This document shows, one piece after another, positions 7,766-36,858 of a DNA stretch of 64,000 nucleotides. Both the position numbers and the translations under genes were made by a program. Origin of the DNA: an uncultured Alphaproteobacteria bacterium (lineage in GTDB: Bacteria > Pseudomonadota > Alphaproteobacteria > HIMB59 > GCA-002718135); NCBI GenBank assembly GCA_902514875.1, contig CABXSY010000003.1, positions 1-64,000 of the forward strand. Reading direction: 5' to 3'. Under the pieces are notes generated by a model. It had not been told where the DNA came from, did no database searches, and was given only the letters and a program-made list of their open reading frames with translations. The first letter of the stretch is position 1. Each line of letters opens with the position of its first letter.

Positions 7766-8965
7766 ATGGAAATAAAATACTTTAATTCAAATTTTGACAA
7801 AATCTCTCAAAATAAAGATACTGATCAAAGTATAACCAATTTAATAGAAAAACTTCCTTCTCTGAATATTGTTTCAGATAAAAATTTATTAGAAGAAACC
7901 ATAAAAATTTCAAAACAATTTAAAGAGAAAAAGGAAAAAATAATTGTATTTGGTACAGGAGGTTCAAATTTAGGAGCTAGAGCATTAAATAATATTATTT
8001 CCAATAATAAAATTATCTTAGAATTTTATGATAATGTTGACCCTATTAATTTTGAAAAAAATTTTCAAAATATTAATTTTGAGCTAACTGGCTTCTTAGT
8101 TATTTCAAAATCGGGTACTACACCAGAGACATTATCTCAATTTTCATGTCTCTATCAAAAGGCAATAGAAGCTAACAAGGTTGAAGATTTTTTTTCAAAT
8201 ACTCTAATCATAACTGAATTTAAAGAATCACCACTTTTTAAAATTGCAAAAGATAATAATTGTTTACTATTAGAGCATCATAAAGATGTTGGAGGCAGAT
8301 ATTCTATATTTACCAATGTTGGTATAGTTCCTGCAATCATTTCTGGATTAAATATAGATGCACTTTTTGGTGGAGCATCTGAAGTAATTAATAATATTGA
8401 TACTTACAAACCTTACAATCTTGGAAGATATTTAACTCAAAAAGAAAATGTAAAATTTACTAATAATGTTTTAATGACATATTCTGATTCACTTTATTTT
8501 TTTGGAAAATGGTATCTGCAACTTTGGGCAGAAAGTATTGGAAAAAATAATAAAGGTATTACAGCAATTCATTCAGTAGGGACCACTGATCAGCATAGTC
8601 AATTACAACTGTATTTAGATGGACCTAAAGATAAATATTTCACCTTTATCACTACAGATCATTCAAATAAGGGCATAAAAATTAATAATAATATGTTTGA
8701 AAATACCGATATTGACTATTTTAAAGATAAAACAATGGGGGATCTAATGGAAGCTGAACAGCGCGCAACCATTGAAACTTTTAAATTAAATAATTTTAGT
8801 TTTAGAGAAATCTATATTCCTAAAATAGATGAACAAAACTTAGGTAAATTATTATCGTTTAGTATAATAGAAACAATTGCTTCCTGTATGTATTTAGATG
8901 TTGATCCTTTCGATCAACCTGCTGTTGAACAAGGTAAAAAACTAACTAAAACTTATTTAAGATAA
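7766..8965 (+). CDS. pgi: glucose-6-phosphate isomerase
   Basis: FGTGGSNLGARAL, VISKSGTTPET, GRYSIFTNVGIVPA and DPFDQPAVEQGK motifs. Confidence 0.93.
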   Translation: MEIKYFNSNFDKISQNKDTDQSITNLIEKLPSLNIVSDKNLLEETIKISKQFKEKKEKIIVFGTGGSNLGARALNNIISNNKIILEFYDNVDPINFEKNFQNINFELTGFLVISKSGTTPETLSQFSCLYQKAIEANKVEDFFSNTLIITEFKESPLFKIAKDNNCLLLEHHKDVGGRYSIFTNVGIVPAIISGLNIDALFGGASEVINNIDTYKPYNLGRYLTQKENVKFTNNVLMTYSDSLYFFGKWYLQLWAESIGKNNKGITAIHSVGTTDQHSQLQLYLDGPKDKYFTFITTDHSNKGIKINNNMFENTDIDYFKDKTMGDLMEAEQRATIETFKLNNFSFREIYIPKIDEQNLGKLLSFSIIETIASCMYLDVDPFDQPAVEQGKKLTKTYLR

Positions 8966-9517
8966 TTTAAAAATATAAATTATTGTTTTACCGTAAGTCT
9001 TTTTTTGAAGTAGATTTAAATTTTCTGGAATTACAATATTATCTTTCACACCAGTTTCTAAACCAATCACGGTAGTATTTTTAATATTGCTTGATAAATT
9101 TTCTAAAAGATTTGTTAAATTATACTTTGCATATGGTGGGTCAATATAAACAACTGAAATATTTTGAAATTCTATTTCTAATTTAGAATGAATAAGGTCT
9201 TCTTCATAAATTTTAAATTGATTATTTTTACAAATACTTAAACAATTTTTTTTTAAAATTTTAAGAACTTCAATATTATTCTCAAAAAAAATTACTTCAC
9301 TCATGCTTCTAGAAATTGCTTCTAAACCCATTGTGCCAATTCCTGCAAAAAGATCTAAAAAAATTTTATTTTTATATAATTCAATAGAATTTTTGATTGC
9401 ATAACTTTCAATAATTGAAAAAAAAGCTTCTCTTTTTAGAGAAGAAGTTGGTCTTACAAAATCATTAGTACTAGCTAATTTTTTTTGCTTAAATTTTCCT
9501 CCAGTAATCCGTATCAT
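8957..9517 (-). CDS. rsmD: 16S rRNA (guanine(966)-N(2))-methyltransferase RsmD
   Basis: MIRITGGKFK, RPTSSLKREAFFSI, FLDLFAGIGTMGLEAISR, YIDPPYA motifs. Confidence 0.93.
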   Translation of the reverse strand: MIRITGGKFKQKKLASTNDFVRPTSSLKREAFFSIIESYAIKNSIELYKNKIFLDLFAGIGTMGLEAISRSMSEVIFFENNIEVLKILKKNCLSICKNNQFKIYEEDLIHSKLEIEFQNISVVYIDPPYAKYNLTNLLENLSSNIKNTTVIGLETGVKDNIVIPENLNLLQKKTYGKTIIYIFKLS

Positions 9518-10206
9518 TTGCTAATTGAATTTAATTTTTGAAATTGCCCTTCTTTAAGTCTTCCAAGCTTATAAGGGCCATATCCAATTCTTATTAATTT
9601 AACTATATTCCATGAAAAATAATTACAAATATTTCTAATTTCTCTATTTTTTCCTTCTTTAAGTTTAAAAATTAACCAATTATGATTTTTTAATTTTTTT
9701 TCAAAGGCAACTTTAATTTTTTTATAACTAATTTCTTTAATTGTAATACCTTTATTTATTTTTTGTAAATCAGTATTTTGTACATTGCTATTTATACAAA
9801 CTCTATAAACCCGCTCAATGTTTGAAGATGGAAGTTCTAAATATCTTGAATAATCACCATTATTAGTTAGTAAGATCAATCCTTCACTCATATAATCTAA
9901 TCTTCCAACGCTTATTAATTGACCGACATTCTTTGGTAATAAATCAAAAATTTTTTTCCTACCTAAATTATCTTTTGTACTACAAATATATTTAATTGGT
10001 TTGTATAACTTCCATACTTCAATTTTATTTGCTTTTTTAACAATTTTATTATTAACTTTAATTATATCTAAATTACTTACTTTATGACTTGGATGAAGGC
10101 ATACTTGATTATTAATTTTAATTTTTTTTTCTACAATTAATTTTTCTGCATCTCTTCGTGAACAAATTCCAGCACTTGATAGATATTTTGAAATCCTAAT
10201 ATTCAC
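9514..10206 (-). CDS. rRNA pseudouridine synthase, RluB/RsuA family
   Basis: N-terminal S4 domain (ISKYLSSAGICSRRDAEKLI), VGRLDYMSEGLILLTNNGD, KEGKNREIRNIC. Confidence 0.92.
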   Translation of the reverse strand: MNIRISKYLSSAGICSRRDAEKLIVEKKIKINNQVCLHPSHKVSNLDIIKVNNKIVKKANKIEVWKLYKPIKYICSTKDNLGRKKIFDLLPKNVGQLISVGRLDYMSEGLILLTNNGDYSRYLELPSSNIERVYRVCINSNVQNTDLQKINKGITIKEISYKKIKVAFEKKLKNHNWLIFKLKEGKNREIRNICNYFSWNIVKLIRIGYGPYKLGRLKEGQFQKLNSISK

Positions 10207-33255: not shown

Positions 33256-33284
33256 TTTTGCATATTAATGTTAACGATTATAAT
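33256..33284 (+). promoter_or_regulatory. candidate sigma70-like promoter for amt leader 1
   Basis: TATAAT at 33279-33284 with TTTGCA (33257-33262) 16 bp upstream; the -35 overlaps the dyad TATGCA-TTTTT-TGCATA. Confidence 0.4.
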
Positions 33285-33321
33285 CTTACTAAAAATTAAT
33301 ATTAAACTAAGTCAGTATTCA

Positions 33322-33372
33322 CGTTCATCACTCTTTTAGAGTGACGGAAGTAGACGAAAGTCGAAGGAACGC
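33322..33372 (+). promoter_or_regulatory. glutamine riboswitch (glnA RNA) aptamer, copy 1 of tandem in leader 1
   Basis: CGTTC...GACGGAAGTAGAC-GAAA-GTCGAAGGAACG: P1 CGTTC/GAACG, P2 CACTC/GAGTG, P3 GAC/GTC, with conserved GGAAGTA and GAAGGAACGC. Confidence 0.85.
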
Positions 33373-33389
33373 ATGCAAAGTTATTAAAT

Positions 33390-33441
33390 CGTTCAATTTG
33401 TTGAAAGCAAATCGGAAGTAGGTTTAACCCGAAGGAACGCG
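33390..33441 (+). promoter_or_regulatory. glutamine riboswitch (glnA RNA) aptamer, copy 2 of tandem in leader 1
   Basis: CGTTCAATTTG...CAAATCGGAAGTAGGTTTAACCCGAAGGAACGCG, same three-stem layout; upstream of amt. Confidence 0.87.
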
Positions 33442-33484
33442 GATCTTATTATTTAATTTCCATAGCTAAGCATGAAAAGTAACG

Positions 33485-33505
33485 CATGACTCAATGTGAG
33501 CCATG
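33485..33505 (+). promoter_or_regulatory. candidate expression-platform hairpin, leader 1
   Basis: CATGACTCA/TGAGCCATG (8 of 9 pairs), same position relative to the aptamers as the hairpin in leader 2. Confidence 0.55.
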
Positions 33506-33532
33506 TACTGTGAAATTTATAATGGAGGATTA

Positions 33533-34819
33533 ATGTTAAAAAAATCTATATATTTCATTAGCATTCTTGCTGTCTTTATGCTCTTCAGTTCATATGCAAG
33601 AGCCGAAGTAGACGGTGAAGTGCAATACATTTTAAATACATTCCTATTTCTTGTATCTGGGTTCTTAGTCATGTGGATGGCAGCAGGATTTGCAATGCTT
33701 GAATCAGGACTTGTTACGTCTAAAAGTGTAGCAACAATTGCTGCAAAAAATATAGGCTTATATTCGATAGCTGGTTTAATGTTTTGGTTAGTTGGATATA
33801 ATATGGCATACGGCATTCCTGCAGGTGGCTTTATTGGATCTCCAATTCCTTGGAGTGATGGTAGCTCTCTTGATACAGGTTATTCAGATGGTTCTGACTG
33901 GTTCTTTCAGATGGTATTTTGTGCAACAACTTGTTCAATCGTATCTGGAACACTAGCTGAAAGAATCAAGATTTGGCCATTTTTTATTTTTTGTGCTTTA
34001 TTAACTGGGTTCATTTATCCAATCGAAATGGGTTGGCAGTGGGGCGGAGGATACTTAGCGGAAGCAGGTTTCTCAGATTTTGCTGGTTCAACTCTAGTTC
34101 ACAGTGCAGGAGCAGCCGCAGCACTTGCTGGTGCGATTTTGTTAGGCCCAAGACTGGGACGTTTTACTGATAGTGGTGAAGCAAGTCCAATGGAACCTTT
34201 TGCAAATTCTTCAATACCTCTTGCAACTCTTGGTGTATTTATCCTGTGGCTTGGATGGTTCGGATTTAACGGTGGATCACAATTAGCTATGGGTACATTT
34301 GATGATGTTACTGCAGTAGCAACAATATATATCAATACTAACTTGGCAGCTGGAGCAGGTGTAATGGCTTGTGCAGTAATCTCAAGATTAGCAACTGGTA
34401 AAACTGATGTTGTGATGATGCTTAATGGTGCATTAGGTGGTTTAGTAGCAATTACTGCAGAACCATTAGCTCCTTCCCCATTCTTAGCAGTAATCATTGG
34501 TGCTATAGGCGGATTAATTGTCTTCTACGGAACAAGACTTTTAATTTCTTTTAAAATTGATGACGTTGTAGGAGCTATTCCAGTACACGGTTTTGCTGGA
34601 ATTTTTGGAACATTAGTTGTTCCTATTTCAAATAGCGCAGCAAGTTTTGGTGCACAACTTTATGGGATAATAGCAATTAACGTTTTCGTTTTTGTTGTAT
34701 CATTTATCATTTGGTACATCATGAAAATGCTGTTTGGTATTAGAATCAGTGAAGAAGCTGAAAAACTTGGTACTGATAAATCTGAAGTAGGTGTAATGGC
34801 TTACAGCATCAGAGACTAA
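33533..34819 (+). CDS. amt: ammonium transporter, paralog 1
   Basis: Signal peptide MLKKSIYFISILAVFMLFSSYARA; WMAAGFAMLESGLV, FAGSTLVHSAGAAAALAGAILLGPRLGRF, GAIPVHGFAGIFGTL. GGAGG before ATG 33533 supports this start over track start 33503. Confidence 0.95.
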   Translation: MLKKSIYFISILAVFMLFSSYARAEVDGEVQYILNTFLFLVSGFLVMWMAAGFAMLESGLVTSKSVATIAAKNIGLYSIAGLMFWLVGYNMAYGIPAGGFIGSPIPWSDGSSLDTGYSDGSDWFFQMVFCATTCSIVSGTLAERIKIWPFFIFCALLTGFIYPIEMGWQWGGGYLAEAGFSDFAGSTLVHSAGAAAALAGAILLGPRLGRFTDSGEASPMEPFANSSIPLATLGVFILWLGWFGFNGGSQLAMGTFDDVTAVATIYINTNLAAGAGVMACAVISRLATGKTDVVMMLNGALGGLVAITAEPLAPSPFLAVIIGAIGGLIVFYGTRLLISFKIDDVVGAIPVHGFAGIFGTLVVPISNSAASFGAQLYGIIAINVFVFVVSFIIWYIMKMLFGIRISEEAEKLGTDKSEVGVMAYSIRD

Positions 34820-34918: not shown

Positions 34919-35293
34919 ATGACTGAAACAGAAATTATAAAAGAAAAAAAAAGAAACATCTATTCAAGTTTTTTTGCAGAAGATTACGTCTCAAAGTTTT
35001 TATTTAAATCAATATTACACCATGTTATTTCTCTAGAAATATATGAAAATAACAAATTAAATGGAATTTCTTTTGAAACAATTTGTGCAAATGTACCTAA
35101 GTCAATTGGCTCTAGATCATCTATTCAATCGATTTTAAACGAAGCATTAGAAAAAAATATTTTTGTTAAAGAACAAAATCAATCTGATAAACGGATTAAA
35201 AATTACTATTTAAGCAATAATTTTCTTGATAAGATAAATGGATGGTTAAAAAAAGAGGGTACTTTTTTTAATAAAATGATTTTAGAAAATTAA
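34919..35293 (+). CDS. putative winged-helix (MarR-like) small regulator
   Basis: 124 aa; SFETICANVPKSIGSRSSIQSILNEALEKNIFVKEQNQSDKRIKNYYLSNNFLDKI resembles wHTH recognition helix plus wing. GGGAGGG RBS. Confidence 0.5.
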   Translation: MTETEIIKEKKRNIYSSFFAEDYVSKFLFKSILHHVISLEIYENNKLNGISFETICANVPKSIGSRSSIQSILNEALEKNIFVKEQNQSDKRIKNYYLSNNFLDKINGWLKKEGTFFNKMILEN

Positions 35294-35362
35294 TTATATT
35301 TTAATAATTAAATTTAATACTATTTGTTGATACTTTTCGAATTATAGTTATAACTCTTATCA

Positions 35363-35413
35363 CGTTCATCACTGTTTTAGAGTGACGGAAGTAGACGAAA
35401 GTCGAAGGAACGC
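35363..35413 (+). promoter_or_regulatory. glutamine riboswitch (glnA RNA) aptamer, copy 1 of tandem in leader 2
   Basis: Near-identical to 33322-33372, with CGTTC/GAACG, GACGGAAGTAGAC-GAAA-GTCGAAGGAACGC. Confidence 0.85.
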
Positions 35414-35430
35414 ATGCAAAGTTATTAAAT

Positions 35431-35481
35431 CGTTCAATTTGCAGTTTGCAAATCGGAAGTAGGTATACCCGAAGGAACGCG
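35431..35481 (+). promoter_or_regulatory. glutamine riboswitch (glnA RNA) aptamer, copy 2 of tandem in leader 2
   Basis: CGTTCA-ATTTGCA-GTT-TGCAAAT-CGGAAGTAGGTATACCCGAAGGAACGC; P2 stem longer than in leader 1. Confidence 0.87.
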
Positions 35482-35519
35482 GATCTTATTAATTAATTTC
35501 CATAGCTAAGCATGAAGTA

Positions 35520-35546
35520 ATGCATAACTAAAGGTTAGTTATGTAT
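35520..35546 (+). promoter_or_regulatory. candidate expression-platform hairpin, leader 2
   Basis: ATGCATAACTAA-AGG-TTAGTTATGTAT, 12 bp with one G.U; positionally equivalent to the hairpin at 33485-33505. Confidence 0.6.
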
Positions 35547-35571
35547 TTATAATTTTATATGGAGTTAAATA

Positions 35572-36858
35572 ATGTATAAAAAATTTTTAAGTCTTTTTAC
35601 AATTTTCTCTTTTATTTTGTTGTTAAGTTCAACTGTGAGAGCAGAGGTAGACGCTGAAGTAGCATATATATTTAATACATTCTCTTTTTTAGTATGTGGA
35701 TTTTTAGTCATGTGGATGGCTGCAGGATTTCTATTTTTAGAATCAGGCCTTGTTACAACGAGAAGTGTATCAACTATTGCTGCTAAAAATATTGGAAAGT
35801 TCGCAATTGTTTCAATTGTTTTCTATTTAATTGGATATAATCTTGGATATTCTGTCCCTGAAGGAGGCTATGTTGGAACACCATCTATATGGACTGATAA
35901 TTCATCTATGGAAACAGGTTACTCAGATGCTTCAGACTGGTTTTTTCAAGCTTTATTTGTTTGTGCTACTGTTTCTATTGTATCTGGTGCTGTTGCAGAG
36001 CGAATAAAAATTTGGCCTTTCTTTACTTTTGCGGCAATTCTTGGAGGAGTAATTTATCCAATTCAAATGGGTTGGGAATGGGGTGGAGGATGGTTAGACG
36101 CCCTAGGATTTGCAGATTTCGCTGGCTCAACATTAGTGCACGCTTGTGGTGGTTCTGCAGCTTTAGCAGGAGTAATTCTTTTAGGTCCAAGACTTGGAAG
36201 ATTTAGTTCGAGTGGAGAACCAGCTAATATGGCTCCATTTGCTCCATCATCAATTCCTTTAGTTACATTAGGAACATTTATTTTATGGATGGGTTGGTAT
36301 GGTTTTAATGGCGGATCACAACTTGCATTAGGTTCTTATGAAGATGCAACAGCAATGTCTAAAATTTTCATGAACACTCAACTTGCTGCTTGCGGTGGAT
36401 GTATGGCTGGTGCAGCAATAACAAGATTAATTGGTGGAAAAACTGATATTGTCATGATGCTTAATGGAGCTCTGGCAGGTTTAGTGTCAATAACAGCTGA
36501 GCCATTAATGCCTAGTCCATTGCTTGCTATTGGAATAGGAGCAGTTGGTGGAGTAATAATGTATTATGGAACTAACTTCTTAAATTCATTAAAATTAGAT
36601 GATGTTGTTGGGGCAATACCAGTACATATGTTTGCTGGTATTTGGGGAACATTGGTTGTCCCTTTAACTAATCCTGATGCATCATACTCAATTCAGTTAT
36701 TAGGTGTTGGATCAGTGTGTATCTTTGTTTTTGTTTTCTCATATATTGTAATATATTTAATTAAAAATATTATGGGATTACGAATTAGTAAAGAAGCTGA
36801 AAAACTTGGAACTGATAAAGCTGAGGTTGGAGTCATAGCTTATTCAATAAGAGATTAA
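35572..36858 (+). CDS. amt: ammonium transporter, paralog 2
   Basis: WMAAGFLFLESGLVTTRS, FAGSTLVHACGGSAALAGVILLGPRLGRF, GAIPVHMFAGIWGTL. Confidence 0.95.
   Translation: MYKKFLSLFTIFSFILLLSSTVRAEVDAEVAYIFNTFSFLVCGFLVMWMAAGFLFLESGLVTTRSVSTIAAKNIGKFAIVSIVFYLIGYNLGYSVPEGGYVGTPSIWTDNSSMETGYSDASDWFFQALFVCATVSIVSGAVAERIKIWPFFTFAAILGGVIYPIQMGWEWGGGWLDALGFADFAGSTLVHACGGSAALAGVILLGPRLGRFSSSGEPANMAPFAPSSIPLVTLGTFILWMGWYGFNGGSQLALGSYEDATAMSKIFMNTQLAACGGCMAGAAITRLIGGKTDIVMMLNGALAGLVSITAEPLMPSPLLAIGIGAVGGVIMYYGTNFLNSLKLDDVVGAIPVHMFAGIWGTLVVPLTNPDASYSIQLLGVGSVCIFVFVFSYIVIYLIKNIMGLRISKEAEKLGTDKAEVGVIAYSIRD

Follow-up and report, generated by a model that had tools for sequence, protein, structure and literature searches.

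Each of two ammonium transporter genes, amt1 and amt2, on a 64,000-nucleotide stretch of alphaproteobacterial DNA (the window) is preceded by two consecutive motifs which, on the basis of their sequence, are glutamine-riboswitch aptamers of the RF01739 family and are predicted to bind glutamine. We consider it probable that each leader works as a glutamine riboswitch and controls translation by way of an expression platform shared by the two aptamers. A cmscan search of the whole window returned four RF01739 (Glutamine) matches arranged as two tandem pairs, one per transporter gene: 33320-33375 (63.2 bits, E 1.3e-11, the best E value) and 33388-33443 (58.1 bits, E 3.1e-10) upstream of amt1, and 35361-35416 (63.2 bits) and 35429-35483 (55.4 bits) upstream of amt2. 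All four copies are full length (1-53/53), keep the conserved core and score 55-63 bits, the gathering score of the family being 35 bits. No other Rfam model matched at its gathering score in this search; the Downstream-peptide model of the type 2 glutamine riboswitch (RF01704), which according to the literature has the same ligand, had 0 matches at its cut-off in the window. The initial annotation had proposed two successive glnA RNA motifs upstream of amt1, to be checked with these two covariance models, and both copies indeed lie far above the RF01739 cut-off; the equivalent pair upstream of amt2 was outside its scope, as were the pair before glnA, the platform that the two aptamers appear to share and the lack of GlnD and GlnE in the lineage. 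The spacing of 17 nt that it gave is corrected to 18 nt, because the P1-to-P1 spans run from 33322 to 33371 and from 33390 to 33439. High full-length scores, conserved core and a nitrogen-assimilation gene context are all as in glnA RNA (RF01739, type 1). The elements of the two leaders are as follows, the post strand being the conserved strand that follows aptamer 2.

33257..33284, + strand: candidate sigma-70-like promoter TTTGCA-16-TATAAT, 37 nt before aptamer 1; weak evidence (3 such promoters found in the search, 2.2 expected by chance)
33322..33371, + strand: amt1 glutamine aptamer 1, with P1 CGUUC/GAACG, P2, core CGGAAGUA and P3; RF01739, 63.2 bits
33372..33389, + strand: amt1 inter-aptamer linker CAUGC-AA-AGUUAU-UAAAU, near-invariant in about 90 tandem leaders
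33372-33376 and 33379-33384, + strand: amt1 5' strand of helix Px, pairing with 33462-33467 and 33470-33474
33390..33439, + strand: amt1 glutamine aptamer 2; RF01739, 58.1 bits over 33388-33443
33441..33461, + strand: hairpin Py inside Px, GGA 33441-33443 with UCC 33459-33461
33457..33474, + strand: amt1 post strand, of which UUUCCAU 33457-33463 is the anti-RBS half
33462-33467 (AUAGCU) and 33470-33474 (GCAUG), + strand: amt1 3' strand of Px, overlapping UUUCCAU
33485..33505, + strand: amt1 hairpin H, CAUGACUC/GAGCCAUG, between post strand and RBS
33522..33528, + strand: amt1 Shine-Dalgarno (SD) region AUGGAGG, complementary to UUUCCAU 33457-33463
33533..34819, + strand: amt1, ammonium transporter, 428 aa; PF00909 E 6.7e-98, TIGR03644 574 bits
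35363..35412, + strand: amt2 glutamine aptamer 1; RF01739, 63.2 bits over 35361-35416
35413..35430, + strand: amt2 linker, with the Px 5' strand at 35413-35417 and 35420-35425
35431..35479, + strand: amt2 glutamine aptamer 2; RF01739, 55.4 bits over 35429-35483
35497..35514, + strand: amt2 post strand, with UUUCCAUA as anti-RBS and the Px strand AUAGCU 35502-35507 and GCAUG 35510-35514
35523..35543, + strand: amt2 hairpin H, CAUAACUA/UAGUUAUG, from the sequence and the amt consensus
35558..35564, + strand: amt2 SD region UAUGGAG, complementary to post-strand UUCCAUA
35572..36858, + strand: amt2, ammonium transporter, 428 aa; PF00909 E 1.9e-95, TIGR03644 533 bits

The PF00909 and TIGR03644 matches agree with the initial annotation in placing an amt gene downstream, and TIGR03644 (NCBIfam), matched by both proteins, is described as 'probable ammonium transporter, marine subtype'. 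Translation of amt1 likely starts at ATG 33533, four bases past GGAGG 33524-33528, rather than at the in-frame upstream ATG at 33503. A 2-5 codon open reading frame starting from GCAUGA in the post strand was also rejected, as it has no clear SD sequence and short reading frames are expected in AT-rich DNA. The 124-aa open reading frame between the two transporter genes (34919-35293) has no Pfam match and at most a weak hit to the transcription factor MsvR; it is kept in genome G224. The amt1 and amt2 leaders can be closely aligned over the region that begins with aptamer 1 and ends with the post strand, and their aptamer pairs are 92.5% identical. Concerted evolution was considered, and no general case could be made for it (0.917 within genomes, 0.911/0.942 between orthologues and 0.894 across); in one genome, L205, the amt1 and amt2 aptamer pairs are identical.

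In the genus, and in a small number of named relatives that were also read, a tandem pair precedes amt in 40 leaders, glnA in 31 and a CP-ATP-grasp gene in 18. In the window's own genome the glnA pair follows immediately on the only PII gene, in the order glnB (PII), tandem glutamine riboswitch, glnA (G000:C17, about 7800-9600, L157, outside the window), and G224 has the same order. The CP-ATP-grasp gene is the first of an operon that also contains Alpha-E and transglutaminase-like genes; operons of this type have been proposed to be a peptide synthesis/modification system (PMC3597751). The leaders of the CP-ATP-grasp gene in the genus (L247:960-4371, L164, L167, L177 and others) encode an open reading frame of 16-25 codons whose stop lies -6 to +8 nt from the ATP-grasp ATG, an arrangement that suggests translational coupling of the two.

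Two blocks outside the aptamers, the linker (CAUGC-AA(A)-AGUUAU) and the post strand (..CAUARCUA(G)AGCAUGA), hardly vary between the leaders of the amt, glnA and ATP-grasp genes. These are complementary to each other, forming a helix, Px, that encloses aptamer 2 and abuts P1 of aptamer 1. At about -10 kcal/mol, the energy of the linker-to-post duplex is reached by no more than 1% of shuffled linkers, whatever the leader class. RNAalifold recovers Px independently in the amt, glnA and ATP-grasp leaders with none of the variable Px pairs broken, and hairpin Py is present in its consensus for the amt and ATP-grasp leaders. Px is kept in other genera and in a SAR116 single cell with wobble-compatible changes (GGUUA/UAACU in L044, CGUGC in L135), and in L213, L200 and L279 it takes the form of a bulged, longer helix. 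Because these changes are mostly one-sided, covariation support for Px is weak; it is complementarity and invariance that are strong, and the invariance could alternatively be caused by protein or tertiary contacts. Comparison of 22 amt leaders shows two-sided substitutions in hairpin H and also some broken pairs.

The post strand is also complementary to the translation start region of the gene that it precedes. In 37 of the 40 amt leaders UUUCCAU(A) can pair with (U)AUGGAGG, as a 7-bp complement in 24 leaders and as related versions of 7-10 bp in 13 more, and in all 31 glnA leaders post-strand AUUUCAUA pairs with the start-codon sequence UAUGAAAU. Both sides are of the amt type in L278, a glnA leader from another genus (UUUCCAUA with UAUGGAGG), and when the classes are swapped the amt and glnA post strands each pair better with their own RBS than with that of the other class. 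The anti-RBS match exceeds that of shuffled sequences only to a moderate degree (median about 4%), is not significant against shuffles in the ATP-grasp leaders, and was not seen in the SAR116 leader L044. Because the post strand is complementary to the RBS or the start codon and neither the amt1 nor the amt2 leader has a sense-strand (+) intrinsic terminator, control is most likely exerted at translation initiation, via one platform common to the two aptamers. Each amt leader would then combine two type-1 aptamers with a single translational platform, in which glutamine binding at both aptamers would decide the partner of the conserved strand and so open or close the RBS. With both aptamers feeding one decision the response may be steeper, and ammonium uptake would be subject to direct two-site glutamine sensing.

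Given a functional translational switch, we favour with reasonable confidence a switch that is OFF at high glutamine, which would amount to feedback repression of ammonium uptake and glnA by glutamine. Repression by glutamine is the expected regulation of Amt and glutamine synthetase (GS). Single-aptamer relatives point the same way. A third, divergent amt gene (amt3) is preceded by one aptamer in four genomes (L160, L180, L225, L229), and its leader contains a pyrimidine tract able to pair either with the aptamer core GGAAGUAGG or with the SD; enforcing the aptamer fold frees the tract, which pairs with the SD, and the mean unpaired SD fraction falls from 0.34 to 0.09. In family f10, a second alphaproteobacterial family (L250, L251, L252, L253), a single glutamine aptamer stands before the same CP-ATP-grasp gene, in leaders with an SD-sequestering hairpin (CUCUUUC/GAAAGAG) by which enforcing the aptamer closes the RBS further in 3 of 4 cases. 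In these models both sets of leaders look like OFF-type switches.

Secondary-structure modelling of the tandem leaders, based on nested-structure ensembles with full aptamer constraints, leans towards activation by glutamine instead. With both native aptamers enforced, Px rises from 0.15 to 0.49 in glnA leaders and from 0.75 to 0.97 in amt leaders, whereas post-strand/RBS pairing declines (glnA 0.82 to 0.51, amt 0.20 to 0.01), with mean SD accessibility in the amt leaders hardly moving (0.31 to 0.32). In such a glutamine-ON toggle both aptamers would fold with glutamine, Px would capture the post strand and translation would start; without glutamine the identical P1 helices would swap partners, shutting the linker into a hairpin loop, and the RBS would be covered by the post strand. 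The folding ensembles, and minimum-energy folds with swapped P1, favour this toggle, and the type 1 and type 2 glutamine riboswitches of Cyanobacteria activate on glutamine, which turns the cyanobacterial gifB gene ON (PMC6316151). However, positive feedback by the product on ammonium uptake and GS would be physiologically odd, and the single-aptamer relatives before amt3 and the same ATP-grasp gene resemble OFF switches, so that we regard the toggle as possible but rather unlikely. Px and the post-strand/RBS helix share three nucleotides (AUA), and the two may therefore be either mutually exclusive (ON) or stacked in a pseudoknot (OFF). An OFF switch would need the stacked Px/RBS pseudoknot, with the post strand as a splint, a structure beyond the nested-structure programs used here.

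The tandem form and the association with ammonium transporters are shared with known glnA RNAs, which a 2010 study described from cyanobacteria and from marine sequences, with GS and PII as further associated genes (PMC2864571). Tandem Glutamine-I riboswitches, which likewise place homologous aptamers together in a single 5' UTR, number 157 doublets and 4 triplets in a 2022 review that lists them with multiple expression platforms (PMC9481103); unlike that filing, the leaders described here point to a single common platform in which the linker takes part by pairing. If the filing applied, each leader would hold two riboswitches that work independently, one after the other and with separate platforms (pseudo-cooperative), but the 18 nt between the P1 helices contain no terminator and no RBS and are too short for either, and the linker has its pairing partner in the post strand, making this arrangement improbable. 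The glycine tandem riboswitch is comparable in layout to the reading that we prefer, having two same-class aptamers, a short linker and a single downstream platform; its aptamer and ligand are different. That the leaders instead control transcription termination or give rise to a regulatory small RNA could be argued from their length and structure, since a sense-strand RNA could end inside them; the lack of a + strand intrinsic terminator in both and the match of the conserved strand to the RBS or start codon render this more doubtful still. Glutamine binding by these copies is a prediction from sequence, and decayed, non-functional relics or aptamers for another ligand are conceivable, but very improbable given the scores and intact core of the four window copies, the covariation of P2 and P3 (two-sided changes when 22 amt leaders and 20 glnA leaders were compared; core CGGAAGUA and GAAG intact) and the retention of RF01739 in 108 of 111 genomes of the family.

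Glutamine riboswitches were regarded as restricted to cyanobacteria in a 2018 review, in which the amt, GS and PII associations seemed to be confined to environmental sequences from strains not in culture (PMC6316151), and they have also been reported from SAR11 and OM43 phages (PMC9004378). In contrast to a class confined to cyanobacteria, the host here is an alphaproteobacterial family. The genome containing the window (1.27 Mb, 54 contigs, 78% complete) has six RF01739 copies in three tandem pairs, the third being before glnA. The non-cyanobacterial, alphaproteobacterial host proposed by the initial annotation holds, on the evidence of this distribution and of the likeness to AG-422-E02, an alphaproteobacterial single cell with 93% identity over 8 kb of window DNA and an identical four-aptamer layout. 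RF01739 was found in 36 of 37 genomes of the genus versus 0 of 24 of a sister family; across the 163 genomes of the order it occurs in 108/111 of the window's family, in 6 of its 7 genera, and in 0/52 others. Among 395 genomes across the class it was found only in this genus and, as a single copy, in family f10, and among 399 across the phylum only in the window's own genome.

A tandem DNA-pattern scan of genome contigs gave 120 stretches, of which only about 15 have the aptamer core; most were rejected as chance matches (Streptomyces and others) lacking it. The linker pattern was not found in viral contigs. A SAR116 single cell carries a cassette of amt and tandem riboswitch (L044:5242-6716) whose similarity to the window, 72% over 1.5 kb, begins exactly at the aptamer, which hints at transfer of leader and gene together. 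Tandem glutamine aptamers with a short linker of a different type stand before very short open reading frames in L050:985-1067, L079 and L145 (minus strand), which are gammaproteobacterial/proteobacterial MAG contigs (SAR86 and TMED104 among them); these could be phage-derived.

The textbook glutamine sensor of Proteobacteria is GlnD. It (PF08335) is absent from all 37 genus genomes and from 15 of 15 further family genomes versus its presence in 24/24 and 2/2 genomes of the sister family, and GlnE (PF03710) was found in 0/37 genus genomes versus 22/24 of the sister family. Although the genomes are incomplete, these absences are not a sampling effect because the genes are missing in all of them, several being at least 90% complete. 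Loss of PII as an explanation was ruled out, since every genus genome tested retains one. In the genus the PII T-loop reads STGG[I/M]D....YDDE and the adenylylation motif of GlnA reads NLYAAS, where the sister family has canonical HTELYRGAEYVVD and NLYDLP; both changes occur in all genus members read. The glutamine riboswitches stand before genes normally under GlnD control and have the same apparent job as the GlnD/GlnB/GlnE cascade of Proteobacteria, glutamine sensing for GS and Amt. That cascade is protein-based, whereas the genus is without GlnD and GlnE and retains PII with a rewritten T-loop. RNA sensing seems to have replaced protein glutamine sensing in the family, because the family lacks GlnD and the genus GlnE, and both the T-loop of PII and the adenylylation motif of GlnA have changed; judging from gene content, the riboswitch would have taken over from the lost GlnD/GlnE system. 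Three family genomes lack both an RF01739 match and GlnD (G015, G815 and G884, the last 93% complete). GlnD/GlnE loss and riboswitch gain may each be one event of shared ancestry on the stem of the family, and because of this the cause and order of the two are a matter of inference.

Our literature search, thin in subscription journals, found no paper placing glutamine riboswitches in this lineage or tying them to GlnD loss. As far as it showed, the alphaproteobacterial family is a new host of the glutamine riboswitch, and the shared-platform layout of the tandem form and the link to GlnD loss, as read from the sequences, would also be new. The fullest reading is that a streamlined marine alphaproteobacterial family has replaced GlnD (with GlnE) by a dual-aptamer riboswitch of new architecture, whose linker pairs with an RBS-reading splint strand, before its ammonium transport and glutamine synthetase genes and a peptide-synthesis (CP-ATP-grasp) operon, and on this our judgement is evenly balanced.

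A lineage can now be assigned to environmental amt- and glnA-associated glutamine RNAs hitherto ascribed to uncultured strains. For tandem aptamers, the leaders suggest a shared-platform design that is testable by a few point mutations. In a family without GlnD and with riboswitches before glnA and amt, the exchange of a protein sensor for an RNA sensor during genome streamlining would become directly testable.
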